Of a DNA stretch of 37,983 nt, positions 8,620 to 36,800 are shown piece after piece. The translations under genes and the position numbers were made by a program. The DNA is from Geobacteraceae bacterium GWC2_55_20 (lineage in GTDB: Bacteria > Desulfobacterota > Desulfuromonadia > Geobacterales > Pseudopelobacteraceae): assembly GCA_001802125.1 (NCBI GenBank), contig MGZK01000170.1, positions 1-37,983 on the forward strand, written 5' to 3'. Every line of letters begins with the position of its first letter. Position 1 is the stretch's first letter. The notes beneath the pieces were generated by a model. It had not been told where the DNA came from. It did no database searches and saw only the letters and a list, made by a program, of their open reading frames with translations.

Positions 8620-8637
8620 ATTAAACGGGAGACAAAC

Positions 8638-11454
8638 ATGAAACCAATGAAAGTGTCAGCCGTGAAAGCGACGGAATACTATTACCAAGCAGACCCGTTG
8701 TACAGCCTTGACGGCGATCACAAATGGATCGGGTCTGGAGCCAAAAACCTGGGGTTGACTGGCAATATCGACTATGACAAATTCACGAATTTGTTGAACG
8801 GCATGGCTCCGGACGGCAGCAAAAGGCTTGCTGGACGTGAGGCAGATCACGGCAAATACGCTGCTATTGATATGCCGATCAGCATTCCAAAGAGCTTTTC
8901 GATACTCGCAATGGTAGACCCGGAATTTCGGGCAAAACTGACCGAAACTTTGATAAGCAGCGCTGAAAACGTCGGTGAATACGTTTATGGCCGGCAGACT
9001 GCAAACGGCGTCACAGAGCAAGTAAAGGGCGGCATGATCGGGGCGGCATTCGTGCATTCGACGTCCAGGGCAGGCGATCCGAATTTTCATTGCCATACGG
9101 TTGTCGCGAATGTCGTTCAACGCCCAGACGGAACATTTTCGACCCTCGAAAATCGGGAGATTTTCGTCAACCAGGGCGAACACCAGCAGCGGGTTTATTC
9201 GGATCTGGCGTCGATGGCGCACAAAATGGGGTACGCTACGGAACTATCAACAAACAAGGGCGGGCTTGTCGTACCTGAAATATCAGGCGTTGGAAAAGAC
9301 ATTAACGACCAGTTTTCAAAACGGCATGAAGAGATACGGAACGCTACTGAATTAAGGGCTGGGATCAAAGAACGCATGCCGGGCTTGTCAGAAATCGAGG
9401 TTGACGGGCTTGTGCAATTGCATACCAAAGCTGCAAAAGACAAGGATCTTTCGGGCGACGAGCTTAACAAATCGTTTCAGACGCAGCTGAAGGGTCTAGG
9501 AACTTCAGCTGATGAAATACTATCTTCTGCAAAAATGGCAGGGTCAGAGCGGGTGCAGTCGGACCTGACAGCACGCGATTTTGTAAAAATGGCGGCTGGT
9601 GATCTGGCAGAACAAGAGAGTGTTACGTCAGAAAAAAATATTCTGGCGATGGCGACAAAATTGTCTACTGGCGTTTGCGTTCGCGAAGATCTTCAAGGAG
9701 CTTTCAGGGAGTCAGTGAAATCTGGTGATATCGTGGATCTGGGAAAAGGCGGATTTACGACACCGGAGATACAGAAAATCGAACATCATATTGCGACTGT
9801 TGCAGTCGAACAGGCCCATGCTTTCAAACCTCTTCTCGACAAAGCCGGGGCTCTTGATGCGATAACTGTTTTTGAAGCTGCCAAGGGTTTCAAAACAACG
9901 GCAGGACAGGCCGCAGCAATCGAATATACTCTGACAGGCGAAGGGCGGCTGTTGGTGATCCAGGGCGACGCCGGGGCCGGTAAATCGACGGCGTTTGATG
10001 CGATCAACAGAGCTCTGGAAGGCCGGGACGATGTAACTGTAAGAGGTTTGGGGTTCCAGGGAAAGGCGGCTGCAGGTCTTGAGTCCAGCTCTGGTATCAA
10101 ATCTGGAACGATCGACGGCTTTCTTTTGTCAAGATCTGATTGGGACGGCCAAAGCCGGCAGCTTTGGGTTGTCGATGAAGCCAGCATGGCAAGTTCGAAG
10201 CATCTCGGGGCTCTGATGACTCGTGCAGAGAACGAAAACGCGCAGATCGTGCTCGTTGGTGACGCGAAACAGATTGCATCGATCGGGGCCGGCAAATTAT
10301 TTCAGGATCTTCAGGATCATGGTTTAGTAAACACAGCAATTATGGATGAAGTGCGGCGGCAAAAAACAGACTATACAATTGATGTTGCGACGGCTCTTAA
10401 AAAACACGATATCAAATCCGCTCTGGATATATTAGATAACCGTGGCAATATTTTTGAATGTGCTGAAAACGGCGACAGAATAACGAGAGCTGCGAATTTG
10501 TATGTCGAACGTGACGAGGTGATTGCTATTACAGTGACAAACAGGGAACGGTTGGATCTAATCCAGGAAATACGCGCTCTTGAAAAAGCTTCTGGTAAAA
10601 TCGGGACGGAAGATCACATATATACAACAAGGGAACCAGTCAATATCATGGGAGCCGCGAAGCGTTTTGCATCGTCGTATGAACCGGGTAATAGCGTATT
10701 TATTCAACAAAATATAGAGGGATTAATACGAGGTAGCGAATTACAAATTGTCGCGGCTGATACTGCAAAAAACAGGCTGACAGTGCAGAACGATAAAGGC
10801 GATTTGATCGAAATCGACACACTGAAAAACGGGGACAAAATCAGTCAATTCCAGGAGGCCCAAACAGCTTTTTCTGAAGGCGAAAAAGTGATTTGGACAA
10901 AAAACGATAATACTGATTTTGGAAAACAACACGGACTTATGAACGGCGTTACCGGCGTGATATCAGAAATTAAGGACGGTATCGCAACAATTAAAACTGA
11001 AAACGGAGATACAATACAACAGCGACTGGAGGGGGCATATATCACAAATGCTCAGGCTATTACGATCAATAAAAGCCAAGGTTTGGGAGAGCGAGACGTT
11101 ATCGCTGTTTTATCATCAGACGCGCCAGCAGCGCTGCTCGATGAAAACAAATTCTATACTGCTTTAACAAGGATGACTCATAACATTTTTGCAGTTACTG
11201 ATGATAAAAACAAACTACTGGAGGCTGTCAGCAACCCCCAAGAAAAAACTTCGACTCTTGACCATGCTGACGAGCTTTTGGCAGGCCTGAAAGCCCGCCA
11301 GGCTGCAGAACAAAATATCAACGACATGCCGGGCGGCTGGAAAGAAAATCATGTGGCGGCTGATGAAAAATCCGCGGTTGTCATCGAGGACAAAATGCAG
11401 GATAAATCGAACGAGCAGCAACAGCAGAGGGCGCAGATCCAGATGAGTATGTAG
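8638..11454 (+). CDS. traI: MobF conjugative relaxase-helicase (TrwC/TraI type)
   Basis: 938 residues, close to R388 TrwC (966) and much shorter than F TraI (1756). The N-terminal relaxase domain (about 1-300) shows the tyrosine cluster Y14-Y16, expected to attack the nic-site phosphate, and the metal-binding histidine triad H140, H151, H153 in HSTSR...DPNFHCH. The helicase part has Walker A GDAGAGKS (443-450), Walker B VVDEAS (D513, E514), the VGDAKQ motif and the C-terminal NKSQG and YTALTR motifs of SF1 RecD-like helicases. The extreme C terminus (about 890-938) is polar and Gln-rich. The enzyme nicks oriT, stays covalently bound to the 5' end and unwinds the strand. Its coupling protein (TraD) is not in the window. 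It follows traU closely (GGGAG ribosome site). Confidence 0.95.
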   Translation: MKPMKVSAVKATEYYYQADPLYSLDGDHKWIGSGAKNLGLTGNIDYDKFTNLLNGMAPDGSKRLAGREADHGKYAAIDMPISIPKSFSILAMVDPEFRAKLTETLISSAENVGEYVYGRQTANGVTEQVKGGMIGAAFVHSTSRAGDPNFHCHTVVANVVQRPDGTFSTLENREIFVNQGEHQQRVYSDLASMAHKMGYATELSTNKGGLVVPEISGVGKDINDQFSKRHEEIRNATELRAGIKERMPGLSEIEVDGLVQLHTKAAKDKDLSGDELNKSFQTQLKGLGTSADEILSSAKMAGSERVQSDLTARDFVKMAAGDLAEQESVTSEKNILAMATKLSTGVCVREDLQGAFRESVKSGDIVDLGKGGFTTPEIQKIEHHIATVAVEQAHAFKPLLDKAGALDAITVFEAAKGFKTTAGQAAAIEYTLTGEGRLLVIQGDAGAGKSTAFDAINRALEGRDDVTVRGLGFQGKAAAGLESSSGIKSGTIDGFLLSRSDWDGQSRQLWVVDEASMASSKHLGALMTRAENENAQIVLVGDAKQIASIGAGKLFQDLQDHGLVNTAIMDEVRRQKTDYTIDVATALKKHDIKSALDILDNRGNIFECAENGDRITRAANLYVERDEVIAITVTNRERLDLIQEIRALEKASGKIGTEDHIYTTREPVNIMGAAKRFASSYEPGNSVFIQQNIEGLIRGSELQIVAADTAKNRLTVQNDKGDLIEIDTLKNGDKISQFQEAQTAFSEGEKVIWTKNDNTDFGKQHGLMNGVTGVISEIKDGIATIKTENGDTIQQRLEGAYITNAQAITINKSQGLGERDVIAVLSSDAPAALLDENKFYTALTRMTHNIFAVTDDKNKLLEAVSNPQEKTSTLDHADELLAGLKARQAAEQNINDMPGGWKENHVAADEKSAVVIEDKMQDKSNEQQQQRAQIQMSM

Positions 11455-12831: not shown

Positions 12832-12849
12832 ATATATAAGGAAGATAAC

Positions 12850-13296
12850 ATGAAAGCACTATTACTTACAACTATGATGATTATTGTAATATCGTCTGTT
12901 GCTTGCACACAAGCTAAAACTATTAATCACAAACTTCAAGTAATTGATAACGATATTATAATAACATGCAATATCAATAAAACACAAACAAAGACATATA
13001 ATTCAGATGAGGTTAAACAACTCAATTTAACCAGTAATTTACAAACATTCATATATGGTGTTATTGATGTTAAAAACATGACTGCAAAACCAGTAATTTT
13101 CAACATAGAAGATTACAAACTATCTTTTGACAGTAGTATTAGCAGCAAAATTTATATTGATAGCATAGCAGACATAATAATTAATAAAGAGGTATTAACA
13201 CCTAATGGTCATTCAACAAAAAACGTCTATTGGGTATTTCCCGGAAGCATCAATACTGATGATATAAACAAAATACAAGTAAATATTAATAGATAA
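12850..13296 (+). CDS. Small exported protein, candidate Rhs immunity protein
   Basis: 148 residues, start after AAGGAAG, 18 bp behind the orphan Rhs tip. The N terminus is a signal peptide (MKALLLTTMM...SSVACTQA); the cysteine at residue 19 could be a lipidation site, although the lipobox (SVAC) is imperfect. The rest is polar, Asn/Ile/Lys-rich and beta-prone with no recognised domain. DNA here is very AT-rich compared with the transfer genes, typical of recently acquired immunity genes. Immediate position after a putative secreted toxin suggests a periplasmic immunity protein; this is an inference from context only. Confidence 0.6.
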   Translation: MKALLLTTMMIIVISSVACTQAKTINHKLQVIDNDIIITCNINKTQTKTYNSDEVKQLNLTSNLQTFIYGVIDVKNMTAKPVIFNIEDYKLSFDSSISSKIYIDSIADIIINKEVLTPNGHSTKNVYWVFPGSINTDDINKIQVNINR

Positions 13297-13395
13297 TTGC
13301 TGTAGTAGTTTTATAAAATATGTATGAGGCAAAAAAACACTTTCGAATTTAACTTCAGAATCTTTAGGCGAAATAAAAACTGCGAGGTAAATAAT

Positions 13396-13749
13396 ATGAT
13401 CAGGATTGTCAATTTAAGCTTGATAATATTATTTGCTGTATTGCTGACTAGCTTCACTGTAGCAGCTAAAGAGAAGGGATTAGAACTTACTGGAAGTTGT
13501 ATTAAGGCATTGCTTGTTTGTTATGATGATTTTAAACAAATTGACAGCATGTCATACGAACAAAGAGTTCTCGATAACTATAAAATTAAAATAAGTGAGA
13601 ACAAAAAAGAGTACTTAATAGAATATATACCAAAGTTGCTAAGTGAATCAGAAATGAAAAAGATAAATAGAATGACTATTGGTAGAAATATTAAATATGT
13701 TGTAAATAAAAATACTACTAAAATAACTAAGCGTGAATTTTATAAATGA
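13396..13749 (+). CDS. Small exported protein, second immunity candidate or orphan
   Basis: 117 residues from the ATG at 13396, preferred to an upstream start at 13324 because GCGAGG lies ahead of it and the protein then begins with a signal peptide (MIRIVNLSLIILFAVLLTSFTVAA). The mature part has two cysteines (SCIKALLVCYDD) and is Lys/Ile/Glu-rich; no family recognised. The DNA is again very AT-rich. It lies between the first immunity candidate and the large YD-repeat gene and could serve either. Confidence 0.55.
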   Translation: MIRIVNLSLIILFAVLLTSFTVAAKEKGLELTGSCIKALLVCYDDFKQIDSMSYEQRVLDNYKIKISENKKEYLIEYIPKLLSESEMKKINRMTIGRNIKYVVNKNTTKITKREFYK

Positions 13750-13817
13750 TCTGCCAAACAATAAGTATTTAAATTATATTTGATGGTATCAATTAAACTG
13801 ATCTATGTGGAGGGTAA

Positions 13818-18521: not shown

Positions 18522-18627
18522 AAACATTGAAGTCCTGATAAGTAAACTTATTCAAACAAGTGAATACGACGATGTATATTCAGAAATAAACCCATTAATT
18601 GCAAAAGCATTGGGTACTTCAAAATAA
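18522..18627 (+). pseudogene. Possible remnant of a gene end after the YD-repeat gene
   Basis: In the frame ending at TAA 18625-18627 the sequence reads as a plausible acidic helical C terminus (IEVLISKLIQTSE...PLIAKALGTSK) but has no start codon or ribosome site of its own. It could be the surviving end of an older gene cut by insertion of the YD-repeat module. It may also be chance. Confidence 0.25.
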
Positions 18628-18644
18628 TATAGATAGGTTGCGGA

Positions 18645-18926
18645 ATGACAAAAGCAGATATTGCAGAGAAAATTCAGCAAAAAAGCGAATTTTCAAAGAA
18701 AGATTCAGCAGAAATTCTCGAAGCACTTTTCAGCATTATGAAGACCACACTTGAATCCGGAGAAAAATTGAAGATTGCCGGTTTCGGGAACTTTGAAATT
18801 AAGCAGAAGAAAGACCGCAAAGGCCGAAATCCGCAAACTGGAGAAACCATTACTATTAAGGCACGAAGAGTCCTATCGTTTAAACCAAGTATGGTTCTCC
18901 GTAACGCGATCAACCGCAATAAATAG
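18645..18926 (+). CDS. ihfA: HU/IHF family protein, IHF-alpha-like
   Basis: 93 residues, full length for the family. It begins MTKADIAEKI and has the DNA-bending beta-arm signature GRNPQTGETI, followed by ITIKARRV-x-SFKPS, which is closer to IHF alpha than to HU. IHF bends DNA and is needed by many tyrosine integrases and by relaxosomes at oriT, so an element-encoded copy could support its own integration or transfer, or simply be a stray paralogue. It lies between the YD-repeat gene and the Qat operon, in AT-rich DNA, with a weak ribosome site. Whether its partner is the host IHF-beta cannot be told. Confidence 0.85.
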   Translation: MTKADIAEKIQQKSEFSKKDSAEILEALFSIMKTTLESGEKLKIAGFGNFEIKQKKDRKGRNPQTGETITIKARRVLSFKPSMVLRNAINRNK

Positions 18927-19192
18927 CAAATGGAAAATAACAAAGCTCACACGCTGATATCATTGCAGGATTGGTGTTTATTATTGTCGGAATGCCAATT
19001 GATAATTCCAAAACTCAGAATAATCTATGTATCTGCATTTGCCTCGATACTTGCATTTATCATAATAGCTGGAATGTATATTGACTATACTCAGACCAAG
19101 CTGCGTACCTAGACATGGTACTTCTATCCAGGGACAATTCAAAGTTTTCTTCCTTGGGGTGAACTTCAAGCGACAGAGCATAGGGGCTACTG

Positions 19193-21175
19193 ATGATTCT
19201 GACTGACAACGAGACCAAAGTTGATCTCCTTAATAATGAAGCAATCGCGGCGACGATCATCAAACTCCTTCGAGATCGGCCCGATCAGCCAGTGACTGTC
19301 GGCGTCCATGGTGACTGGGGTGCTGGCAAATCAAGCGTCCTGGAGATGATCGAGGGCGGGTTCGAAGGTGAAGAGAAGGTTCTGTGTCTTAAATTCAATG
19401 GCTGGCGCTTTCAGGGATTCGAAGATGCCAAGATTGCACTCATCGAAGGTATTGTAACAGGCCTAATCGAAAAAAGGCCCGTCCTCACCAAGGCCAGTGA
19501 AGCGGTCAAGGATGTCTTTCGTCGTATTGATTGGCTCAAATTGGCCAAGAAGGCCGGTGGTCTCGCCTTTACGGCCTTCACCGGAGTCCCAACTCCAGAC
19601 CAGATAAATACAATTGTCGCTACGCTAGAGGGGTTTATCGCCGATCCGGCAAGGCTTGCCACGAAAGATAATGTCGAATCAGCCATTGTGGGAGTTAAAG
19701 GCCTGCTGAAGCCGAGGGGCGAAAGCGATTCGAACAATGTGCCCGAGGAGATTAACGCATTCCGAAAAGCTTTTGACAATCTCCTTGAAAAGGCAGGCAT
19801 TGAGCAACTCGTCGTTCTTATCGATGACCTCGATCGCTGCCTCCCCGACACGGCGATAGAGACACTAGAGGCCGTGCGTCTCTTCGTTTTCACGTCTCGA
19901 ACCGCATTCGTCGTCGCTGCAGACGAGGCGATGATTGAATACGCGGTGCGCAAGCACTTCCCGGATCTACCAGACACAACAGGCCCACAGACTTACGCCA
20001 GAAATTATCTCGAAAAGCTAATCCAGGTGCCATTCCGTATCCCTGCACTGGGCGACACCGAAACCCGCATCTATGTCACGCTCCTTCTTGTGGGCGCCGA
20101 GCTCGGCGAAAAAGATGAAGAGTTCATTGCGTTAATCAGTGCTGCCCGTGAACGACTAAAACGACCGTGGGCGTCGAGTGCACTTGATGCGGCGACCGTC
20201 CGGACTGTGCTCGGCGATAAGGCTTTGCGCGTAAACAATGCGCTGGCGCTCAGTGATCAGATCGGACCGATCTTGGCCAGTGGAACGAAGGGCAATCCCC
20301 GTCAGATCAAGCGCTTCCTTAATACGCTGGTCTTGCGTCATCTCACGGCCGAAGCGCGGGGGTTTGGGAGCGATGTCAAGTTGCCGGTTCTCGCCAAGCT
20401 CATGCTGGCCGAACGCTTCCTTCCGCGATTCTTCGATAAGATAGCTGCAGCTGCGGCCGCAGCGCCGGATGGGAAATGTCCAGACCTGACCGCTCTCGAA
20501 GAGGCCGCGACCACGAAGGAAAAAGCAAAGGAGGCGGCAAAACCGGAGAAGACCCTCTTCAAGGGTGCTGGCACAACCATGGCCGCGCCTAAGCTGGAGC
20601 CCGTAAAAATGACCGAGAGCGTGCTCCTTAATGAATGGCTTTCCTCGCCCGCCATCAAGGCCTGGGCAGCCGTACCGACAATGCTCGGCAACGAGGATCT
20701 ACGTGCATATCTCTTTGTAGCCAAGGACCGAAAAGATTACTTCGGCGCCGCCTCGGTGCTCGGTCACCTGGCTACCGTTGTCGATCAGCTCTTTGGTGGC
20801 AAACTCGCGGTACAGGGTCTTGATACCGACCTCAAGAGACTCGCTCTTCCCGAAGCTGAGCAAGTTTTCGAAGCCGTGCGCGGCCGTATCGTCGGCGGAG
20901 ACAGCTTCGTAATTGAACCTCCTGGCGTGGCTGGATTGGCTGTCCTCGTCAAAGCCCATCCGACACTTCAAAGTAGCCTCATCGATTTTCTAGAGTCATT
21001 GCCTAGAGATCGACTTGGTCCATGGGTTTGCAAAGGTTGGGAGGCTACCATCAAGGATCAAGAAGCGACTCAGCGTTTCGATCATCTCCTACTGGAATGG
21101 AGCAAAGATGGAGGTCAGATGTTGAAAGTTGCTGCCAGCGGTGTGTTACGTACGCGCCAGGAGAGAGGTAACTGA
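19193..21175 (+). CDS. qatA: QatA, KAP-family P-loop NTPase of a Qat defence system
   Basis: 660 residues. The Walker A motif GDWGAGKS is at 40-47, the KAP Walker B LIDDLDRC at about 209-216, and the central region (about 235-400) carries KAP-type motifs such as FVVAADE, YLEKLIQVPF and GNPRQIKRFLN. KAP NTPases appear in several anti-phage systems; here the three genes behind it (QatB, QueC-like, TatD-like) identify QatABCD. The start ATG at 19193 follows a modest AGGGG. Its stop codon overlaps the qatB start by one base (TGATG), showing translational coupling. The operon is clearly more GC-rich than the Rhs region before it and the regulatory region after it, which indicates a separate origin. 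Confidence 0.92.
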   Translation: MILTDNETKVDLLNNEAIAATIIKLLRDRPDQPVTVGVHGDWGAGKSSVLEMIEGGFEGEEKVLCLKFNGWRFQGFEDAKIALIEGIVTGLIEKRPVLTKASEAVKDVFRRIDWLKLAKKAGGLAFTAFTGVPTPDQINTIVATLEGFIADPARLATKDNVESAIVGVKGLLKPRGESDSNNVPEEINAFRKAFDNLLEKAGIEQLVVLIDDLDRCLPDTAIETLEAVRLFVFTSRTAFVVAADEAMIEYAVRKHFPDLPDTTGPQTYARNYLEKLIQVPFRIPALGDTETRIYVTLLLVGAELGEKDEEFIALISAARERLKRPWASSALDAATVRTVLGDKALRVNNALALSDQIGPILASGTKGNPRQIKRFLNTLVLRHLTAEARGFGSDVKLPVLAKLMLAERFLPRFFDKIAAAAAAAPDGKCPDLTALEEAATTKEKAKEAAKPEKTLFKGAGTTMAAPKLEPVKMTESVLLNEWLSSPAIKAWAAVPTMLGNEDLRAYLFVAKDRKDYFGAASVLGHLATVVDQLFGGKLAVQGLDTDLKRLALPEAEQVFEAVRGRIVGGDSFVIEPPGVAGLAVLVKAHPTLQSSLIDFLESLPRDRLGPWVCKGWEATIKDQEATQRFDHLLLEWSKDGGQMLKVAASGVLRTRQERGN

Positions 21176-22071
21176 TGGGAACATCTTCCGCATTTGGAGG
21201 TCAAAACGGCGGCACACCGCTCATTCCGAGCTGGCTTGACAATGGTGGTGCGCCGCCGGCGGCTCCGAATGGGGCTCCTCCCGATGGTGGACCACCAAAC
21301 GGTCCGCCGCAGGACATTCCAGCGCCCGGCACACCACCTACACCACCCGCACGACCGCCTATACCACTTGTGGCAGATCCATCTCGTTTCTCGGCGGCGC
21401 GCAACAACCTCTCTCGTTTCGCTGGTTCTGGGGGCAACGATCGAAAGAGCCTTGGTCGAGCGGTGTCACATTATGTTGGTTCGTCATCGGGCGGAGCTCG
21501 CAACGCAGCTGCAAGGATGGGATCGGCGCGTGGCGCTGGTAGTCGCCTTGTTGGTTTTCTGTCTGACGCAGTTGCACGGGGTGCTACCGAGGCCCTTCGC
21601 GCGCTTAACCTCGGGGCTCTCGCCGGCCGCCCGATCGAAGAAATTTTTCTCGGCCTGTCGAATTATGTGTGCCCTGACGGCGGTTCGATTGATGAAGGTA
21701 TCGCGCGCGAAGCATTCATTGAGACAATCACGGAACTTGCGAGCGCGGGCATAGCAGACCTCGACGGGCTCACCGTAGATCAGATGCAGACCGTGTTCGA
21801 GCTTTACGCGACCAATGCCATCGAGGCGCGACTCTGCAATGATATTGGCATGAAAACAATTACCTTGCCGGCTGACAGCCACGATGCCGCACTCGTACAG
21901 GCGCAACTGAAAGATTTTATACGTCGCGGAGTGGCCGATGCGCTTACTACAACCCGCACCGCAGCTGCCGCGCTCACACCTGACCGTGTGCTCCAATTCG
22001 TTGGGGGTGTTTACGAGCAGGCGTTCGCGATCTTGCAGATTATGGGTGATGATGAAGCGGAGGGCGCATGA
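21175..22071 (+). CDS. qatB: QatB of a Qat defence system
   Basis: 298 residues. It begins Met-Gly, so methionine removal would expose an N-terminal glycine (MGTSSAFGGQNGG). Residues about 20-65 are a Pro/Gly-rich disordered linker (GAPPDGGPPNGPP), and the remainder is largely alpha-helical with many Ala. No catalytic motif is visible. QatB is required in characterised Qat systems, but its role was undefined when the system was first described. I recall later work proposing that QueC-like enzymes of defence systems modify the N-terminal glycine of a partner protein; the Met-Gly start would fit, but I cannot verify that here. It overlaps qatA by one base and qatC by four (ATGA). Confidence 0.88.
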   Translation: MGTSSAFGGQNGGTPLIPSWLDNGGAPPAAPNGAPPDGGPPNGPPQDIPAPGTPPTPPARPPIPLVADPSRFSAARNNLSRFAGSGGNDRKSLGRAVSHYVGSSSGGARNAAARMGSARGAGSRLVGFLSDAVARGATEALRALNLGALAGRPIEEIFLGLSNYVCPDGGSIDEGIAREAFIETITELASAGIADLDGLTVDQMQTVFELYATNAIEARLCNDIGMKTITLPADSHDAALVQAQLKDFIRRGVADALTTTRTAAAALTPDRVLQFVGGVYEQAFAILQIMGDDEAEGA

Positions 22072-23438
22072 GGCGACACGTAATAATAGGTCGGTACGGT
22101 CTTGACGACCGCAGCCAATTTCCACTCGGAGATGGTGAAGTCGAAACCCGACTTGACCTAGTTGTCGGCGAGCGATCGCTCGATCACGGGATCGGCCTCG
22201 CACTTACCGATCTGGCCCGGATTGGAGTTCATCCCTCCGAGATTGGTGTTGATGTTCTGGTTTTGGCAGCGCATGTTCACGCCGCCGATACCAGAATTTC
22301 GCGCACTAGTGAGTCACAGGATGGGTGGACTCGCGAAATCCGGCTGATCGTCCCAGTTTCCAATCCGGAGCGCTGGACATCTGTCGCACCGAACTTCGTC
22401 CGGATGCTGAACTTCCTTACCGGCGACCGCTGGTTGCTCGCGTTTCGCGCTCGACCGAGTCGCTTCACCAGAGTCGCGCCAGCACGTCCAGCTCGGCTCT
22501 TTGGTCCTCCGTTCGACAATCTTGCACTCTTTTCTGGGGGCCTGGATAGTCTCATCGGAGCGATCGACTCCCTCGAAGAAGGTCGTACACCTCTTCTTAT
22601 CAGCCACGCAGGAGAAGGCGCTGTAAGCAAATCACAAACCTCGATCTTTGACGTGTTGCAGTCACACTATCGGGGTCGCTCCCTAAATCGCTTGCGTCTC
22701 TGGATGGCGTTTCCGAAGGGATTCATTCAAGGTTCAGCCGGAGAGGATACCACACGCGGCAGATCTTTCCTTTTCTTTGCACTTGGCGTCTTTGCAGGCA
22801 GTGGCCTTGATACACCGTTTACTCTGAAGGTGCCTGAAAACGGTCTGATCGCCGTTAATGTGCCTCTCGATCCATTGCGGCTCGGCGCGCTAAGCACTCG
22901 CACGACCCATCCCTTCTATATCGCCCGGTGGAACGACGCGCTCCAAGGACTGGGTCTGAATGGCCACATAGAGAACTCCTATTGGGATAAGACCAAGGGC
23001 GAAATGGTGGCCGCATGCGCCAACGGCACTTTGCTACGCCAACTCATTCCTTCGTCGTTCTCCTGTGCCTCCCCCACCAAAGGGCGATGGCAAGGTCATG
23101 GCACACAGCATTGCGGCTATTGTCTGCCGTGTCTAATCAGGCGAGCTGCACTCGTTACAGGGCTGTGCCCCGATCCCGACCCGACCGTCTATACAATCGA
23201 CAATCTGACAGACCACGTGCTTGATACTCGGCAATCTGAGGGCGTGCAGATTCGCTCCTTTCAACTTGCGATTGAACGGCTTCGTGCAAGACCGGGTTTG
23301 GCGCCGATCCTTATCCATAAGCCGGGACCGCTCTTTGATGAATCGCCTGCACGCCAGGAAGCCATCGCAGGTGTCTACCGTCGCGGCCTTGAAGAAGTCA
23401 GAACACTATTATCCGGCGTAAGGACAGGGCCAAGATGA
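22068..23438 (+). CDS. qatC: QatC, QueC-like PP-loop enzyme of a Qat defence system
   Basis: 456 residues, about twice the length of housekeeping QueC (about 230). The N-terminal roughly 140 residues are an extra domain. The PP-loop ATP-pyrophosphatase motif SGGLDS is at 156-161. Four cysteines at 333, 349, 352 and 355 (C...CGYCLPC) match the zinc site of QueC, which converts 7-carboxy-7-deazaguanine to preQ0. Both catalytic and zinc motifs are intact, so the protein is probably an active adenylating enzyme acting on a deazaguanine or related carboxylate. It overlaps qatB and qatD by four bases each (ATGA), so the four genes are translated as a unit. Confidence 0.92.
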   Translation: MRRHVIIGRYGLDDRSQFPLGDGEVETRLDLVVGERSLDHGIGLALTDLARIGVHPSEIGVDVLVLAAHVHAADTRISRTSESQDGWTREIRLIVPVSNPERWTSVAPNFVRMLNFLTGDRWLLAFRARPSRFTRVAPARPARLFGPPFDNLALFSGGLDSLIGAIDSLEEGRTPLLISHAGEGAVSKSQTSIFDVLQSHYRGRSLNRLRLWMAFPKGFIQGSAGEDTTRGRSFLFFALGVFAGSGLDTPFTLKVPENGLIAVNVPLDPLRLGALSTRTTHPFYIARWNDALQGLGLNGHIENSYWDKTKGEMVAACANGTLLRQLIPSSFSCASPTKGRWQGHGTQHCGYCLPCLIRRAALVTGLCPDPDPTVYTIDNLTDHVLDTRQSEGVQIRSFQLAIERLRARPGLAPILIHKPGPLFDESPARQEAIAGVYRRGLEEVRTLLSGVRTGPR

Positions 23439-24190
23439 CAGAAAACCTTTGTCCCGTTGGAGTGGATTTCCACTGTCATCTAGATCTCTATCCCGACCAT
23501 AAGGCTGCGATCGCTAGGGCAGAAGCCTCCCGCATTTATACGCTTTCAGTTACCACGACGCCGAGAGCCTGGCCGCGCAATCACGAGCTCACGCGCGACA
23601 CCCACTATGTTCGTGCTGCGCTCGGTCTACATCCGCAGCTCGTTGCCGAGCGTTCCGACGAGCTGTCGTTATGGGAGCGATATCTGCCTGAAGCTCGATA
23701 CGTCGGTGAGGTTGGCCTTGATGCCGGTCCACGCTTCTATAAGTCGTTAGAATCTCAGAGGCACGTCTTCCGTACCGTACTTGAGAAATGTGCAGAAGCT
23801 GCGGGTAAAATTCTCTCTGTCCACAGTGTGAGGAGCGTTCCAGCAGTGCTCGATATGATCGAACGGTATCTCCCGCGGGACCGTGGTGTCGTTGTGCTTC
23901 ACTGGTTCACCGGCAGTAAAAGTGAGGCGAGGCGAGCAGCCGCACTTGGTTGCTATTTCTCCGTCAATGCTGAAATGGTTCGGTCGGATCGAGGTTGTGG
24001 TCTTGTCGCCGACCTACCGATGGATCGTATTCTTACCGAAACGGATGGCCCATTTACCAAAATCAATGGTCGTCCAGCCGAACCATCCAACATGAATGTG
24101 ACAATTGATTTAATCGCACGAGTTCGTAATGTGCCATCACATGAAATCGCAAAGACAGTTCAAGTTAACCTTCAAGCCTTATTGTGTTGA
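23435..24190 (+). CDS. qatD: QatD, TatD-like metal-dependent nuclease of a Qat defence system
   Basis: 251 residues, normal length for TatD. Metal-binding features are present in order: DFHCH (H13, H15), GEVGLD, the SVHS segment, HWFTGS and the ETDGP motif near the C terminus, all as in TatD 3'-5' DNases. In Qat systems the TatD-like protein is an essential component. The last gene of the operon, it ends 54 bp before a strong bidirectional terminator. A housekeeping TatD is ruled out by its translational coupling to qatC. Confidence 0.92.
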   Translation: MTENLCPVGVDFHCHLDLYPDHKAAIARAEASRIYTLSVTTTPRAWPRNHELTRDTHYVRAALGLHPQLVAERSDELSLWERYLPEARYVGEVGLDAGPRFYKSLESQRHVFRTVLEKCAEAAGKILSVHSVRSVPAVLDMIERYLPRDRGVVVLHWFTGSKSEARRAAALGCYFSVNAEMVRSDRGCGLVADLPMDRILTETDGPFTKINGRPAEPSNMNVTIDLIARVRNVPSHEIAKTVQVNLQALLC

Positions 24191-25086: not shown

Positions 25087-25287
25087 TTATTTTAAGGCAG
25101 CGGCACGATCCAAGGCCGCTTGACGGATATAATGCGACAGATCTTCGCCGGCGGCTTCAGCCGCTGCTTTAACTGCAGCTATCTCAGACTCTTTCCAGCG
25201 CAGCTTAATGGCAACCCTCCGGGCATCGGCTTTGATCGATCCCAAGGGCTTGCCAGGGCCTCGTTTTGCCGGGGTTTCGTCAGTCAT
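25087..25287 (-). CDS. Small ribbon-helix-helix-like DNA-binding protein
   Basis: 66 residues from the ATG at 25287; AGGAGAAA lies 7 bp upstream, and longer in-frame starts would run far into the preceding gene. The N terminus is basic and Gly/Pro-rich (AKRGPGKPLGS), followed by a beta-strand plus two helices (VAIKLRWKESEIAAVKAAAEAAGEDLSHYIRQAAL split into strand, helix, helix), the pattern of ribbon-helix-helix proteins such as CopG, Arc or MobC. It overlaps the upstream peptidase-like gene by 8 bp. It lies directly between the two operator-bearing promoters, so it is the prime candidate for the repressor that binds them. A relaxosome accessory role (MobC-like) is the main alternative. Confidence 0.65.
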   Translation of the reverse strand: MTDETPAKRGPGKPLGSIKADARRVAIKLRWKESEIAAVKAAAEAAGEDLSHYIRQAALDRAAALK

Positions 25288-25963
25288 GTTTGTTTCTCCT
25301 ATATGGGGTCGGCGGCCAATTTGGTATCGGATCTGGAAGAAAGGGGATATCGTCAACATTGCCCAAGGTGCCGGCAACTTCCAGAGCGGCGGCCAGGTCC
25401 TGCACTCGTTTCCAAATTTCCGGAGTTCGCAGAAGACGTTCTGTTTCGATCGCGAGAAAATCGTACTCGTTTCGCCAGGGCAGCAGCATGCAAAGCGCTT
25501 CTGCATCACAGATATCATTATTCCCGATTTCGTTGCATTCCGGAGCTAAAGCAATCTCAACACTGTCAGAAATTGCATCAGCAATCGGCCCCGCGAGGGC
25601 CGCGCATACTCCTGACCTGATCCACCGGCGCTCTTCCATGAGGCTTTTTTTGCCCACAATGCGGGTCTGAATATATTTTTTGTAGCCAGTGCGGTTGACC
25701 GACATACAGTAACTATCTTCGTCCCAAAAAACATAGGGGGATTTTGCTGAATGCGGCAGTTCAGCGCGGCAGATACCATTAATATCAGTCCGCACGCTGC
25801 CCCTCTTGCTTGTGTGCTGCCACGCGCCGGGACCCTCCGGCCGGACAGCCATCTCAGACACAAAAGCCCCGCCGAAGGCGTAAATAACGGCATGGGCGGC
25901 CTCGTGTATGCATGTCTGTCTGCGGTCGGCAGCTGTGAAGAGACAGTCGGTATCGTCGTTCAT
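25280..25963 (-). CDS. HEXXH metallopeptidase-like protein
   Basis: 227 residues from the ATG at 25963, preferred to 25975 because GGAG lies 6 bp ahead. HEAAH at 20-24, within C-I-HEAAHAVIYAFGG, resembles the zinc-binding helix of FtsH-type (M41) peptidases. A likely third ligand would lie in the C-terminal half (around CNEIGNNDICDAEALCM), but I cannot assign it. Element-borne HEXXH proteins next to DNA-binding regulators can act as anti-repressors (ImmA cleaving ImmR in ICEBs1 is the known example); here the neighbour is an RHH-like protein, so a similar role is an inference. It is first in an operon with the RHH gene, behind an operator-bearing promoter and, further up, copy 4 of the shared element. 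Confidence 0.65.
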   Translation of the reverse strand: MNDDTDCLFTAADRRQTCIHEAAHAVIYAFGGAFVSEMAVRPEGPGAWQHTSKRGSVRTDINGICRAELPHSAKSPYVFWDEDSYCMSVNRTGYKKYIQTRIVGKKSLMEERRWIRSGVCAALAGPIADAISDSVEIALAPECNEIGNNDICDAEALCMLLPWRNEYDFLAIETERLLRTPEIWKRVQDLAAALEVAGTLGNVDDIPFLPDPIPNWPPTPYRRNKHD

Positions 25964-26112: not shown

Positions 26113-26960
26113 AAAGCCAAAAACTGTTCAGAGCTTCATGAATATACTAACAAAAGCCTACAAAATTGCATAAAATCGAGGCGTCTGGTATATTCCGAGC
26201 GATTTTTGAAAAAACAGAAATATATACCACACCGGATAAGTAAACAAACAACCCAGGAATGTATTAAATATAAATAATATTATAAATATATAATTAGTAA
26301 ATTGATCTGTTTACATTAGCGTTGTATTAACTTTCAATAAACTTTTGTACTACATACAACATGGGTAAGCATGGCAGCAAAACAACTACTGTATAACAAT
26401 AACACCTTTATTTACAAGGCTTTCAAGCTTTACATCTGTCAACAACGCACCACTCCTGAGATCTATTTTCCGTCACAATATTTTATTCAAATTAAAGGGC
26501 ATATATCATGCCAACGATTAAACATTAAAATTACTGTATACAATTATTGATACAATTTAATTAGATAAGTTAGCTTACTAAAAAACCCCGAAGATAACTT
26601 TTTCTACCAACTCCCCATACAATCACGTAACTACCTAATAACTAACAGCTATACCCTCAAACCGGCCGTCCGCTTCACGTTCACCAACCCCGTTCACGTC
26701 AATCTCCCGGCCCCAAAACCTGCACACTGATTGCTCCGCGTCACCAGAGGCCGTTCCGGCGGTCAACCAGAGTGCCTAAAGGCTCTAGGCTTTTACGGCA
26801 TCTTGCTTTCTGGATCAACCCTCCACCGTCACGCCAATCTGTTTCAATAATCGGTTCCCCCTAAAGGTTTCCCCCCAATTATCTTCACAGATCGCTGCGC
26901 TTTGTCATGTCGTCTCCAGGCCGTTCCAGACGCTGCGACCAGATCATTTATCCGTAGTTA
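26113..26960. other. Non-coding region, possible oriT/leading-region control DNA
   Basis: About 850 bp with no convincing gene. The left half (to about 26640) is very AT-rich; the right half is GC-balanced and contains short inverted repeats (GCCG-TTC-CGGC at 26750-26760; GCCTA/TAGGC at 26774-26790) and a repeated AGGCCGTTCC (26748-26757 and 26918-26927). It separates minus-strand regulatory genes from plus-strand leading-region genes, a usual place for an origin of transfer, but no known nic sequence was recognised. The oriT idea is inference. Confidence 0.35.
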
Positions 26961-27078
26961 TCGTTTGTGCCTGGTTTCCTCCCAATCCCTTGAGTTGTGC
27001 CCCGCAGTTGGTTGTGACGGGGCGACGAACTCAAGGAACATCCGGGAGGAAACACAAAATGAACGCACAAACGACAAC
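26957..27078 (+). promoter_or_regulatory. Four-tier nested hairpin enclosing a ribosome binding site and start codon
   Basis: Four stems nest around one loop. Tier 1: GTT-A-TCGTTTGTGC (26957-26970) with GCACAAACGA-C-AAC (27065-27078), 13 of 14 paired. Tier 2: GTTTCCTCCC (26974-26983) with GGGAGGAAAC (27044-27053), 10 of 10. Tier 3: CCTTGAGTT (26988-26996) with AACTCAAGG (27028-27036). Tier 4: GCCCCG (26999-27004) with CGGGGC (27018-27023). The ribosome binding site GGGAGG is inside tier 2 and the ATG (27059) is in the internal loop between tiers 1 and 2, so translation would be shut off in the folded RNA. The same fold in single-stranded DNA resembles the F-plasmid Frpo idea, a promoter active only on the incoming strand (inference). 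Confidence 0.8.
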
Positions 27079-27276
27079 AAAACAGAATGGTTTTCGGGGG
27101 GCTTCAGAATCTAAGGATCATCAGGTTTCCGGACTTAACGAAATCAAAACAGACTTGTTGGCGAGCTTCAGAGCCTGAACATCAACGACACAAATCACCT
27201 GGCGGCAGCAATTAACCTGCAGCACGGAATGGACCGCATACAGAGCGCAATCAACCAAATTCAGGCAACAGCCTAA
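27059..27276 (+). pseudogene. Small leading-region gene with apparent frameshift
   Basis: The ATG at 27059, behind GGGAGGA, reads 39 residues to a TGA at 27176-27178 (MNAQTTTKQNG...TDLLASFRA). From about 27165 a second frame continues as protein-like sequence (ELQSLNINDTNHLAAAI...QIQATA) to TAA 27274-27276, 22 bp before ardC. Joining the frames with one extra base near 27165 gives LLAELQSLN and an intact protein of about 72 residues. Either a base is missing (mutation or sequencing error) or the gene is decoded by frameshifting. The family is not recognised; the helical, Gln/Asn-rich product precedes ardC. Confidence 0.5.
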
Positions 27277-27298
27277 ACCACCAAAGGAGATCACAGCC

Positions 27299-28180
27299 AT
27301 GAAAAAAACATCAACAGACACAAAACAGACAGTTGCGGACATCATCACAGAAGCGATCATAGCTAAACTTGAAGCCGGTTGCATTCCCTGGCGCAAGCCC
27401 TGGAATGGTGCAGCAAACGCTCCAAAAAACCTTATCACTGGCAAGCCATACCGGGGCATCAATGCCTTTATCCTGGGCTGCTACGGCTTCACAAGTCCGT
27501 ATTTTGCAACCTTTAAACAGATCCAGGAGAAAAAAGGCACCGTCAAAAAAGGCGCAAAATCAATTCCCGTCGTGTTTTACAGCATTAAAGAAGTGGCTGA
27601 CCGGATCACAGGCGACGAGATCAATGTGCCAGTTCTGCGCTATTACCGGGTTTTCAATTTGGAAGACGTTGAAGGGATCGATGTCCCGACCCCGGAGGAA
27701 GTAACACGCGAGTTTTCAGCAATCGAAGAGGCCGAACGGATCGTTGCAGATATGCCGTTTTGTCCAGAGATTAAGACAGGGCAGGCAAAAGCCTATTATT
27801 CGCCATCGCTCGATTACGTCAACATGCCAAAAAACGAGCTTTTCCATTCTGATGAAGAATTTTACAGCACGCTTTTTCACGAACTGACACACAGCACCGG
27901 CCATTCTAACAGGCTGAACCGGTCAACAGTAACAAAAACCGCGCACTTTGGATCTTCTGAATACAGCAAGGAGGAATTGATTGCAGAGATGGGGGCGGCA
28001 TTTCTTGCAGCAGAGGCCGGGATTGTTAACGCTACTATCGACAACAGCGCGGCATATATCAAAGGCTGGATTGCAGCTTTAAAAACAAAGGACAACCGGG
28101 GGATGGTTATCCAGGCAGCGTCAGCAGCCCAGAAGGCCGCAGACTACATTTTGAATATACCGGCACCGGCGGCAGTTTAA
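27299..28180 (+). CDS. ardC: ArdC antirestriction protein
   Basis: 293 residues, about the usual length for ArdC (pSa ArdC is 297). The N-terminal single-stranded DNA-binding domain (about 1-130) has IPWRKPW, YRGINAF and FATFKQIQEK-x-GTVKKGAKS. The C-terminal zincin-like peptidase domain (about 150-290) has HELTH (194-198) followed by STGH and, downstream, EELIAEMGAAFL, completing the metal site. ArdC enters the recipient early and protects incoming DNA from type I restriction in characterised plasmids. It starts after AAAGGAG and leads an operon with the DUF6573-like gene and a small lipoprotein. Its position behind the nested hairpin supports a leading-region role. Confidence 0.93.
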   Translation: MKKTSTDTKQTVADIITEAIIAKLEAGCIPWRKPWNGAANAPKNLITGKPYRGINAFILGCYGFTSPYFATFKQIQEKKGTVKKGAKSIPVVFYSIKEVADRITGDEINVPVLRYYRVFNLEDVEGIDVPTPEEVTREFSAIEEAERIVADMPFCPEIKTGQAKAYYSPSLDYVNMPKNELFHSDEEFYSTLFHELTHSTGHSNRLNRSTVTKTAHFGSSEYSKEELIAEMGAAFLAAEAGIVNATIDNSAAYIKGWIAALKTKDNRGMVIQAASAAQKAADYILNIPAPAAV

Positions 28181-28236
28181 CAAATCAAACCGGGGAGGGT
28201 AAAACCTCCCCCGAAATTCCCCAGGAGGAAAGAAAA

Positions 28237-28617
28237 ATGCAGAGAGACTTTGAAATAATTCACACATACACAAGGGCGGAGGCGATAGCAGACGGCGTTT
28301 TGATCGACCTAACGACAAACTATCCGAATGAAGCAAAATTATTTAAATTTCCCGTCGCTTGTACAGATGCGGTCTGGCAGATCATCGACCAGGCAGCAAC
28401 CAACAAACAGCATCATCAAACACATGCCGGCATCATCTGGGACATTCTTTATATGAGTATTCACGGAATTACTCGCAGATTCTCTGATGCAGAGCATTTG
28501 TTTACTGTGATCATAACCGGAGCAAGCCGGCAGCAAAATTACACGCTGAAAGCGATTTGTGGCCCGTCTGATGATCTTTCACCTTGCATTACCATATTGA
28601 CCGAGTTTGAAGATTAA
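28237..28617 (+). CDS. DUF6573-like protein of mobile elements
   Basis: 126 residues, start behind CCAGGAGGAAAG. The sequence pattern FEIIHTYTRAEAIADGVLIDLT at the N terminus, then KFPVACTDAVWQII, is what I know as DUF6573, a family common on conjugative plasmids and near ardC. The function is unknown. No signal peptide, no membrane segment, no catalytic motif. A short GC hairpin (GGGGAGG / CCTCCCC, about 28192-28210) precedes it and might limit readthrough from ardC. Confidence 0.75.
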   Translation: MQRDFEIIHTYTRAEAIADGVLIDLTTNYPNEAKLFKFPVACTDAVWQIIDQAATNKQHHQTHAGIIWDILYMSIHGITRRFSDAEHLFTVIITGASRQQNYTLKAICGPSDDLSPCITILTEFED

Positions 28618-29003: not shown

Positions 29004-30212
29004 TCACGAGGCTTTTAGGTGATCTAAATAATCAGCCCATTTTTGGATCATCTCTCGCCGCTCGTCGATTAGATCAACACGATCATATGCCGTACCATTT
29101 GGAGATTTTGTCAAATGTGCGAGTTGTATTTCTAACAGTTCTACATTGATTTTCAGCTGTTCGCGGCCCATGGTTCGCGCCATAGCGCGAAATCCGTGGC
29201 CAACCATTTCTTCACTGGAGAACCCCAGGGCTCGCAGAGCCATATTAACTGTATTCTCACTCATGCAGCGCGTTTTTCCGCGAGTGCTCGGAAAAACATA
29301 TTTACCGGTTCCGGTAAACGGCTGTAAATCCCGCAATATTTCAACAGCTTGCTTACTGAGCGGCACGACGTGCGCTTTTTTCATTTTCATTTTTGTTGCA
29401 GGTATTTCGCATAATTCAGAATCAAAATCAATTTCCGACCATTCCAACGCGCGCAGGTTGCCGGGGCGCAAAAAAGACATAGGAGCGAGCAGGAGTGCTG
29501 CCCGGACTACATGACTGCCCGAATACGAATCGATAGCTTGTAATAGACGGGCAGCGTCTTTGGGTTTTGTGAATGCTGCATAGTTGTTGTTTTTGACCGC
29601 TGGTAAAATACCTTTCAACTGCAGGGCTGCATTGTATTTTACAACACCCAGCGCTATTGCATAACCCCAGATTTTTGTGCAGTCATACAAAAGCCGGTGT
29701 GCCCCTTCAAGCGCTCCCCTGCCCACTACTAATTGTAAATACTTCAGCAGCTCGGGCGGTTCAATTTCGTCGATCGGTCGTTTGCCGATTGCCGGGAAAA
29801 GATCATTTTCTAATTTGCGGAGCTTGTTTTTTGCGTGCTCTTCATCCCATTTTTTAGCATCAGCATGCGATTTATGCCAAGCCCGCGCAATTGTCTCAAA
29901 ACTATTCAAGACAAATCCGGATGCTACTGCTTTTTTGTGTTTCTTCTCTGCTGCTGGATCTATACCAACTGCGACCTGTTCGCGGGCGGCTTTCCGTTTT
30001 TCTCTCGCGGCTGAGAGAGAAATTTCAGGATATGAACCCAGAGCAAGGATCTTCTCCTTACCCTCAAATCGGTATTTGAAACGCCACAACTTGCTGCCCG
30101 TCGGCATTACAACAACAAAGAGGCCGTCACCGTCAAACAAGGTGAACTGCTTGTCTCTGGGCTTTTCATTTTTGATTTGTGAATCTGATAAAGGCAGTGT
30201 TTTTCGTGCCAT
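29004..30212 (-). CDS. int: P4-type tyrosine recombinase, element integrase
   Basis: 402 residues, standard for the family. An N-terminal DUF4102-type arm-binding domain (about 1-90: LSDSQIKN, LFVVVMPTGSKLWRFKYRF), a SAM-like core-binding domain (about 100-200) and the catalytic domain. The catalytic residues are visible: R249 in FLRPGN, H339 and R342 in GHGFR, H366 in QLAH, and the nucleophile Y376 in TAYDR. It integrates and, with an excisionase, excises the element. It starts 263 bp from the tRNA-Thr gene and reads away from it, the usual arrangement for tRNA-targeting elements. No excisionase gene was recognised in the window. Confidence 0.95.
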   Translation of the reverse strand: MARKTLPLSDSQIKNEKPRDKQFTLFDGDGLFVVVMPTGSKLWRFKYRFEGKEKILALGSYPEISLSAAREKRKAAREQVAVGIDPAAEKKHKKAVASGFVLNSFETIARAWHKSHADAKKWDEEHAKNKLRKLENDLFPAIGKRPIDEIEPPELLKYLQLVVGRGALEGAHRLLYDCTKIWGYAIALGVVKYNAALQLKGILPAVKNNNYAAFTKPKDAARLLQAIDSYSGSHVVRAALLLAPMSFLRPGNLRALEWSEIDFDSELCEIPATKMKMKKAHVVPLSKQAVEILRDLQPFTGTGKYVFPSTRGKTRCMSENTVNMALRALGFSSEEMVGHGFRAMARTMGREQLKINVELLEIQLAHLTKSPNGTAYDRVDLIDERREMIQKWADYLDHLKAS

Positions 30213-30474: not shown

Positions 30475-30550
30475 TGGAGCCGATTGTCGGAATCGAACCG
30501 ACGACCTCATCATTACGAGTGATGTGCTCTACCAACTGAGCTAAATCGGC
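30475..30550 (-). tRNA. tRNA-Thr (anticodon CGT), probable attachment site
   Basis: 76 bases including an encoded CCA. The minus strand folds as a standard cloverleaf: acceptor stem GCCGATT with AATCGGC, anticodon stem CATCA/TGATG with loop CTCGTAA (anticodon CGT, plus-strand ACG at 30515-30517), and T arm with GGTTCGATTCC. The 3' end faces the integrase gene, so the tRNA 3' half is the likely attB; the matching att copy should lie at the other end of the element outside the window. Confidence 0.97.
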
Positions 30551-33866: not shown

Positions 33867-36800
33867 ATGAGTGTCCGTGGATTTCAGGTAGCCATGGTTT
33901 CGTCCTTGTTGCTGGCGTTGATATTCATGCCAAATGGCAGAGTTGAAGCAGCGCTTCCGTGCTATGGCTGTCATGGCACGGACACCCCGGCCGATGTCAG
34001 GCCCGAGGATTCCTCCGAACGTAATATCGCCACGGGCGGGTTTGTGGGCAACCACCGCCGGCACATGCCCGGTCCGGCCAGCACGGCTAACTGCAACACC
34101 TGCCATCCCGGCAGCAAGGACTACCTGTCTTCCCACCGTGACGGCCATATCAAGATCGGTTCCAGAATAAACGCATCTCCGCTCCTGACGCCCTACAAGA
34201 ACAGCACCTCGGCCTTTCCCCAGAGCGCCACACCGGCGCCGGGAAGCTGCGCCAACGTCAACTGCCACTTCGAAGCATCCACTCCGGCCTGGGGCAGCAA
34301 TCCGGCGGCAACCAACTGCGCCACCTGCCATAACGCACCGCCCAGCGATGGCAGCCATGGCAAGAAACATGGCCAGACCTACGGCAACGGCCCGGAAAGC
34401 TGCGCCAGATGTCATCCCAACCATCTGGCCGAATCGCATACCTTTGCACATGCCACCAGCGCCGGCAAACGCGGGCTGCAGATCCGCTTCGGAACTCCCA
34501 ACAGCGGCGGAACTTATTCAGGCACTCCGCTGAAAGTCAGGCTGGGCTACCCGGATTACCTGCCGAGCCAGAATCCCCCGCGCCAGGGCAGTTGCAGCGG
34601 CATCTACTGCCACAGCGACGGCCTCGGCAATCCGCCCAAGGACACCCCGCAGTGGTCGGCCTTGACCACCACCAGCTGCGACTCCTGCCACCGCTACCAG
34701 GGTGTCGCCTATCTGAACATGACTTCCAACGGGCACACCAAGCTGGCCGATTACCGCTGGATCAGAAAATACCCCTGCACCTACTGCCACTCGGCCACGA
34801 TCTCCTCGACCATCCCCTCACCGGGCATGCCGCCGGTTGACAGCTCGCTGATCATGGGCCGCTCCGTGAACGGGCTTTTCAGCAGCAGCCGGCACGTCAA
34901 CGGCGTCAGGGATGTCTCCATGAACCAGTTCTGGCGCATCGAGGGTGACCGCAAGACATACCCGCAGCCCAGTTACAATTCCACAACCAAGGTCTGCGAC
35001 AACGTCTACTGCCACAGCGACGGCACCACCGACCCGGAATCGATCAGGGCCTTCCCCTGGAACCAGCGCGGCACCGAATGCAATAGCTGCCACGGCCACC
35101 AGCGCAGCGAAAACTGTATCGACTGCCACAACGGCACCCGGGAATTCCTGATTGACGGCAAGCAGACCGTTCTATCGCTGCAGTCCGCCTGGCCGGCCGG
35201 CCAGGAATGGATGTCGGCCATGCCGATGTTTCCCAATGAGGGAACCAACAAACCGCGCGCGAACTCACATCCCAGGCACATGCAGACCAATTTCAGCTGC
35301 GCCGAATGCCACTACAACACCATCCTTGCCGGCGGAGAGTGCAAGCTGTGCCACGACGGCAGCATTGGCAAAATGGGCGAAGCCTCCCATCTCAACCCGG
35401 CCTTCCATGTCAACAAGGTCCGGGACGTGAGTTTCAAGCAGGGGGGCAGCTACAACCGCGACCTCAAATCCTGCTCCAACACCAAGTGTCACACCGGCAG
35501 CGATCCGCAATGGGGAGCCTCCACCAACAGTGCCATCATCTGCCTCTCCTGCCACGGAACCGAGTCGGAAACGGATCTGGACGACTTCGGCAGCGTCAAC
35601 GACACCAAGGCCCAGATCAGCCTGCCGCAGTGGCGCAACACCGGCCACGGCCGCAAACAGACGGTTTCCGGCAACTACAAATCCGGGAACCCGGCCGCCA
35701 ACTTCCCCGGCAACCCCTGCTGGTACTGTCATGACAACAAGGTGTTGCACAACTACAGCGGCAATCCCTTCAGGCTCAAGATCCACCCCCAGATAGTCAA
35801 GCGCTACGAGCGGGAATGCGTCTACTGCCACATGGAGCGCACCGACGTGGAATGCCTCAGCTGCCATAACACGGCCGAGTCGCTGGCGCCCCAGATCAGT
35901 TCGATTTTTTACAGCATTTCGGCCAGATGGCCGAACCGCTCCACCGTCACGCGCCCCAACCACGCGGTGATGTACAATTCCGAAACCAGGACCGCGACTT
36001 CGTGCATAACCTCTGACTGCCATTTTGTCGATCCGGCCACCCCCTCCGCCGACATGAAGATCCACAACAACGGCTCAGTCAAATGGACCTCCCAGCAGAA
36101 GGAGGATGTCAGGAACCAGTACCAGATGATGGGGGTCTGCCTGCAGTGCCACGACGATAACAGCAACGGCAAGTGCAACGGCTGCCACGACGGCACCCTT
36201 CCCAAATACCGACTGGGTTACGATCCGGGAACCGGTTATATCGTACCCTCCGTGGCCAAGGCTTCATCGGTGCACTTCGGCTACAAACACTACAAGAAGT
36301 ATGTGGAGAGCAACACCTGGAGCGGCGGCAAATTCTGCTGGGATTGTCACGATCCCCACGGCGACGGCAACATCTACATGGTCCATGACAACGTAGCCAC
36401 CGAGACCGACGGCAGGTTCGGCATTCCCCTTCCGGGCAAGCGCGCCCCGGTCGTCTTCTCCCAGAAACTGACCGGCGAGGATTACGCCAAGAGCATCGGC
36501 ACCATCAATGGCATCTGCAACGTCTGCCACTCGACCAACGCAAAACATTACCGCAGCGACGGCGGCGACGGCCACAACACCAAGTACGTCTGCACCAAGT
36601 GCCACGAGCACCGTTTTACCGACAGCCATGCCGACAGGAAATCCTGTAATACCTGCCACAAGAACAAACCGGTGCCGCGCCACTCCGGCTTCGGGTTGCC
36701 GATGGACTGCGTCAAGTGCCACAACGGCAACGTCGGCGCTAGGGTGGACGTGATCGGCCAGTTCATGGGCAATTCGCACCATGTGCAGGGCATCCCCATC

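Follow-up and report, generated by a model that had tools for sequence, protein, structure and literature searches.

According to PMC9849209, deletion of Frpo1 or Frpo2 in the F plasmid abolishes the early expression of the genes behind them, and PMC11541004 describes leading anti-defence genes as sharing one orientation, suited to being read from the entering strand. The Geobacteraceae hairpin analysed here resembles Frpo1 and Frpo2 in being nested, in its (here inferred) position in the leading region, in preceding leading genes and in having more than one copy. It differs from them in having no AT-rich core between the arms of its inner stem and in possessing extra outer and middle stems; BLASTN of the hairpin against 72,556 plasmid records, F among them, gave no match, hence none to known Frpo or ssi sites, and the likeness is one of motif. 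The ssi sites of ColIb-P9 are similarly repeated hairpins before leading genes, with wobbles on the same strand (two sites), but they have another sequence and, by eye, no evident direct repeat of the kind called B/C below. The repeated control stretches of IncN R46/pKM101, which we take to be the CUP elements, also precede leading-region genes (ard/ccg); unlike the hairpin family, they are near-identical, and several have a TTGACT...GATAAT-type promoter at their end, close to the start codon (by eye).

The window, that is, the whole stretch of 37,983 nt that was analysed (contig MGZK01000170.1 of Geobacteraceae bacterium GWC2_55_20, to which all coordinates refer), holds an F-type conjugative element with TraN, TraU, a TrwC-type relaxase, ArdC, an integrase and tRNA-Thr (Table 1). 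Cargo at 11962-24190 comprises RHS and PKD-domain proteins, HU, a KAP NTPase and a TatD nuclease.

Table 1. Features of the window, and loci with a recognised gene behind the hairpin.
Feature	Position or loci	Strand	Remarks
TrwC/TraI-type (MOBF) relaxase	8638..11454	+	
Pyrimidine-rich stretch upstream of hairpin	26800..26956		motifs GTCACGCCAATC (26828-26839), TTCCCCC repeats and TTTGTCATG common to relatives; by eye
Four-tier nested hairpin	26957..27078	- (inferred transferred strand; appears to be the selected one)	folding, covariation, wobbles
Outer stem, 5' arm	26957..26970		partner 27065-27078; 93% complementary
Middle stem, 5' arm	26974..26983		partner 27044-27053; 100% complementary
Segment A (inner stem, 5' arm)	26988..26996		partner 27028-27036; fold
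Segment B (inner stem, 3' arm, plus 3' bulge)	27028..27042		variable stretch X = 27033-27042
GGGAGG (27044-27049, ribosome-site-like) and ATG (27059-27061)	27044..27061	+	in 3' arm; unconserved in family
39-codon frame from ATG	27059..27178	+	ORF; 71-72 aa in two relatives
Segment C (downstream box GGCTTCAGAATCT-X)	27100..27122		X = 27113-27122, repeats X of B
ArdC antirestriction protein gene	27299..28180	+	PF08401, PF18818
DUF6573 gene	28237..28617	+	profile match
Tyrosine integrase of element	29004..30212	-	profile match
Attachment repeat TGGAGCCGATTGTCGG	30475..30490		in tRNA-Thr 3' end; other copy on contig C74
ArdC behind hairpin	window, L143, L144, L131, L125, L013, L124, L121_6639, L134		interrupted in L134
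ArdA behind hairpin	L132, L130		
RadC behind hairpin	L145, L126, L127, L120_10948, L129, L121_12335		
DUF4942 behind hairpin	L120_13126		
DUF6573 behind hairpin	L121_15834		
DUF3560 behind hairpin	L119		

A preliminary description, made from the sequence alone, had proposed this four-tier hairpin, and both its coordinates and its fold hold up, the predicted folding being far above shuffles on both strands. As RNA, the plus strand reaches -59.5 kcal/mol (z -6.1, 0 of 200 shuffles as good) and the minus strand, which folds better, -70.3 kcal/mol (z -10.3); as DNA the values are -34.1 and -37.7 kcal/mol, respectively. In the plus RNA fold a GC-rich terminal stem lies inside the inner stem. The pairing, said at the outset to be perfect on both sides of the gene start, is in fact broken by internal loops and by three A·C mismatches on the plus strand, which are read as G·T wobbles on the minus strand. 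The same description had the stems enclose GGGAGG and the ATG: in the plus fold GGGAGG is indeed paired, but the ATG, while enclosed, sits unpaired in an internal loop. Since two relatives encode a longer product from the frame that starts there, the window's copy would be truncated or misread (a disabled gene or a sequencing slip); a protein search with this small ORF returned two proteins, the query's own sequence and one other. The region upstream of the hairpins is G-poor (mean of the 26 family members: C 0.32-0.33 and G 0.16-0.17 at 60-180 bases upstream), and the shared motifs of the pyrimidine-rich stretch precede many of them, though not that of L128.

The hairpin belongs to a family that is absent from Rfam: it matched no family at the curated score, the only match in the scan being the tRNA, and relaxed searches gave sub-threshold matches only (best E 0.0069, to a microRNA family). 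BLASTN of 26940-27280 against 277 genomes of the class matched 9, the own genome included. A covariance model (R1), built on the plus strand from ten copies of the hairpin, raised this at E <=0.001 to 18 of the 277, again with the own genome, and matched 2 of 395 genomes drawn across the phylum, namely the own genome and one of its family. Because just 3 of 80 ardC loci (L012-L014) have a hairpin at E <=0.001, the hairpin does not generally accompany ardC. The 26 members analysed from here on are the window copy and 25 others found with R1, the weakest of which is L121 6639 (E 0.011); left out were L048 (weak, E 0.13), minus-strand echoes of the same hairpins, and L123, which repeats L122.

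The search for compensatory changes in relatives, suggested as a check when the hairpin was first noticed, revealed strong covariation. In the ten copies, both partners had changed in 21 of 39 pairs and 87.1% of cells were paired; the covariation score of 0.375 (shuffles 0.179) was reached by none of 500 shuffles, and every covariation measure drops when the partner is slid along. Across the 26 members, a copy's own 3' arm was its best partner in 18, with a mean duplex energy of -57.3 for own arms versus -34.4 for swapped arms. The pattern holds after thinning, the own arm being best in 17 of 19 representatives at <80% identity and in 6 of 6 at <70%. The selection on the fold that had been proposed is thus supported.

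We then counted wobbles by strand, from alignments in which every 5' arm was set against its own 3' arm in reverse complement, so that plus and minus were treated alike. The 26 members contain 1147 Watson-Crick pairs, 49 A·C on the plus strand (that is, G·T on the minus strand), 4 G·T on the plus strand and 61 other mismatches. By their wobbles, which are scattered across the arms, 24 members lean to the minus strand, none to the plus strand, and 2 are ties; in the thinned sets the counts are 38 minus versus 2 plus (19 members) and 15 versus 2 (6 members). The minus strand is also the more stable as DNA in 21 of 26 members. R1 allowed G·U on the plus strand, so the search was biased against this result. 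The near absence of G·T on the plus strand implies that the mRNA is not the selected strand, and it speaks likewise against a conserved mRNA leader or riboswitch fold, in which G·U would be expected to be tolerated on that strand. Strand-biased cytosine deamination on transferred DNA could contribute to the wobble bias.

The strand that enters a recipient can be proposed from the structure of the element. The attachment repeat has its second copy on contig C74, a match of 16 bp that is weak alone (E 0.48); its support comes from its place at the end of the tRNA, between chromosomal-looking genes and transfer genes. Read onward from this repeat, C74 has a weak HTH match, then an AAA/DnaB_C-like gene, a gene for an RHH-like protein of 144 aa (called by eye; no Pfam match), the TraD/TrwB-type coupling protein and, truncated where the contig stops, a TraG_N protein. 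With the two contigs joined, these transfer genes run in the relaxase's direction, and we infer that C74 continues into the window's contig and bears the element's other end. A candidate oriT, CACTNTACGCAAGC, lies just upstream of the RHH-like gene on C74 and also before the corresponding gene in L134, where an SSB gene directly precedes it; a 14-base pattern drawn from these two candidates is present in 2 of 157 loci, those two alone. In reverse complement, the candidate shows a small hairpin and then TTGCGTA(G/T)AGTGCC, resembling the R388 nic region TGCGTATTGTCT, in which the nic point of R388 presumably lies and guides the choice of strand here. In R388 the small DNA-binding protein, the coupling protein and the relaxase are encoded opposite to the nic strand; the transferred strand here should thus be the minus strand, which should also be the template for ardC. 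Starting at oriT, transfer should pass att and then, with the element in its circular form, int and ardC, and reach the hairpin after about 9.6 kb. A NikA-like accessory gene (25087-25518, minus) stands beside a noncoding stretch of about 900 bases, far from the C74 candidate, and could mark a second or old oriT region.

The leading-region setting given in the preliminary description gains support from the att joining, from the transferred-strand geometry and from the genes behind the hairpins, and the leading position of the window's hairpin is probable through that joining. The coupling protein and the hairpin share a strand in 5 of 5 cases (G269:C272, G244:C71, G231:C170, G208:C307 and the window's contig pair). 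Counted against a single-strand start site are that only 7 of 26 hairpins are on contigs with a relaxase or coupling-protein match, that in G252, a genome in one contig, the hairpin lies a long way from either coupling-protein gene, and that in G244 and G231 the relaxase and coupling protein are upstream of the hairpins on the contig, which makes early entry of these hairpins less certain.

Within about 1.6 kb, 20 of the 26 hairpins are followed by leading-region genes on their own strand (ArdC 9, RadC 6, ArdA 2, and DUF4942, DUF6573 and DUF3560 one each). Of the remaining six (L146, L118, L133, L135, L122 and L128), the Pfam scan covered the first proteins after the hairpins of L146, L118 and L133 and gave no match, and the frame scan showed no frame behind that of L135. 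Hairpins also occur in series, in one orientation and each before its own operon: three in L121 (6639, the weak member mentioned above, 12335 and 15834) and two in L120 (10948 and 13126). A permissive scan placed an ATG and a ribosome-site-like stretch within the hairpin in 15 of 26 copies, 13 of which have a frame starting there (12 of at least 60 codons, plus the window's 39-codon frame), and none in the other 11.

We favour, with a probability of about 60%, the reading that the hairpin is a divergent Frpo-like single-strand DNA start site on the transferred strand of the ICE. The minus strand would enter the recipient 5' end first, and pairing of its arms would create a double-stranded segment within the leading region. 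An enzyme of the host, with RNA polymerase the likeliest, might then start RNA at the paired hairpin and read the transferred strand across the antirestriction genes before the second strand is made; once the element is double-stranded, the hairpin would be gone and expression from it would end. Polymerase entry, early expression and later switch-off are steps proposed by analogy. The single-strand DNA promoter that had been put forward at the outset is supported by the transferred-strand geometry and by the wobbles on the transferred strand, both read from sequence. A scan of the arms for sigma-70-like -35/-10 elements found no pair above the shuffled level, and the same scan misses the F Frpo sites too. 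If true, early expression from single-strand promoters would extend to Geobacteraceae elements, found here through covariation and not through similarity to F, and the asymmetry of wobbles offers a simple test for which strand of a DNA hairpin is selected.

Of the other explanations, a complementary-strand start site (ssi), which would load primase or polymerase for second-strand synthesis with expression as a secondary effect, is unlikely, even if the same strand and place fit it and the title of the original Frpo paper, as far as a title goes, covers both transcription and primer RNA synthesis. One such site would be enough, yet separate copies precede separate operons in L121 and L120, and the co-varying box near the gene start, described below, also speaks against it. 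Template switching can improve the match of imperfect inverted repeats, and B and C in the window are direct repeats 80 bases apart, so that repair of quasi-palindromes by this route, or some other DNA role such as a protein or recombination site, might be thought to maintain the pairing; we consider this quite improbable, as plain conversion would erase the fixed differences between B and C and the bulges that recur at the same places. Less probable still is a folded antisense RNA, made from the minus strand and controlling the operon: such an RNA would fit the wobbles equally well, but wobbles make up just about 4% of paired positions, which is low for a structured RNA, a simple scan of 26510-27320 found no minus-strand sigma-70-like site, and the transferred-strand geometry would be left unexplained. 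The mRNA switch of the preliminary description, in which plus-strand RNA hides the ribosome site and ATG, has in its favour that this strand folds well with the ribosome site paired, but is very improbable given the wobble counts, the 11 copies with no start codon and ribosome site in the hairpin, and the lack of any Rfam match at curated score.

The Frpo-like start site appears to have a further component. The typical order after the hairpin is GGGYTC-NNGAAATCT-X, where X repeats the stretch behind AACTC of the inner 3' arm, and this downstream box C seems to form one device with the hairpin. Over the first ten bases of X, B and C agree at 8.48 of 10 within a member versus 5.30 between members (25 members, 0 of 5000 permutations), a test that leaves some shared ancestry in. 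Thinning gave 8.67 versus 5.23 for 18 members (0 of 10000) and 8.67 versus 4.53 for six (18 of 10000); with 2 members the test is powerless (5058 of 10000). L120_13126, which has no CTCA anchor, was omitted, the C anchor of L144_3097 was hand-set one base off, lowering its score, and position 1 of X, being fixed by the search pattern, is excluded as evidence. The match extends through bases that are unpaired in the hairpin and holds whether C is coding or noncoding. B and C nevertheless keep fixed differences between the matched variable bases (ACTC/ATCT, and often A/T at position 6). As copies on one contig (L121, L120) differ in X, one protein reading a fixed X is unlikely, and a link in cis between B and C is required.

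Pairing of A with C is possible but weak, and we rejected it as the sole cause of the match (A:C -11.4 versus A:B -20.4): over the bulge part of X, A is mostly without a complement though B and C match (by eye). When further complements of X were sought on either side, cis scores were barely above swapped ones (7.32/7.05, 6.64/6.33 and 6.60/6.54), and coding constraint as the sole cause was set aside since some members have C inside a gene and others do not. By eye, no B/C pair is evident in R46, nor in ColIb-P9. Our literature search, within the accessible text of its sources, found no mention of a downstream box coupled to B, and the box appears to be new.

The third, coupled box also appears in F Frpo, on a well-worked plasmid. 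There an additional A:B stem surrounds the known hairpin, with a C box downstream that repeats the variable stretch of B; seven copies in three plasmids have three types of X, and C follows B in all. This arrangement can be seen in L166 (about 8320-8640 and 13710-14040), L167 and L168. For A in the Frpo1 copy of F, the X part belongs to another type, mismatched to B. The Geobacter B-box profile placed the two F C boxes tied first among the 37,972 positions of the F stretch and the F B boxes at rank 20, and the C profile placed the F C boxes at rank 50; in two more plasmids the B profile ranked C boxes 2, 4, 5 and 1, 3, and B boxes 109-151. The script for B/C pairs missed the F pairs (an offset of one base) and gave one stray match in F. 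The transferred strand folds better in 7 of 7 F-type copies, as the minus strand does here, and the F leading genes are oriented relative to the tra genes as in the window's element. Wobbles split 17 versus 7 in six distinct copies from three F-type plasmid stretches and 5 versus 0 in the two ColIb-P9 sites, in the same direction as in Geobacteraceae and less extreme.

These likenesses suggest a possible homology between the Geobacteraceae device and F Frpo. One might speculate, and we hold this as a doubtful proposal, that F-type single-strand promoters share a three-part A/B/C device of which the two are distant forms. On the entering strand A would pair with B. C, located inside the first gene or shortly before it, would accept arm A once displaced, or else RNA started at B, in a kind of hand-off or primer jump on single-stranded DNA. 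In ColIb-P9 (L171, about 28060-28250 and 35090-35280), GTGGAC occurs both upstream and downstream of GTCCAC, and by eye two exclusive pairings seem possible.
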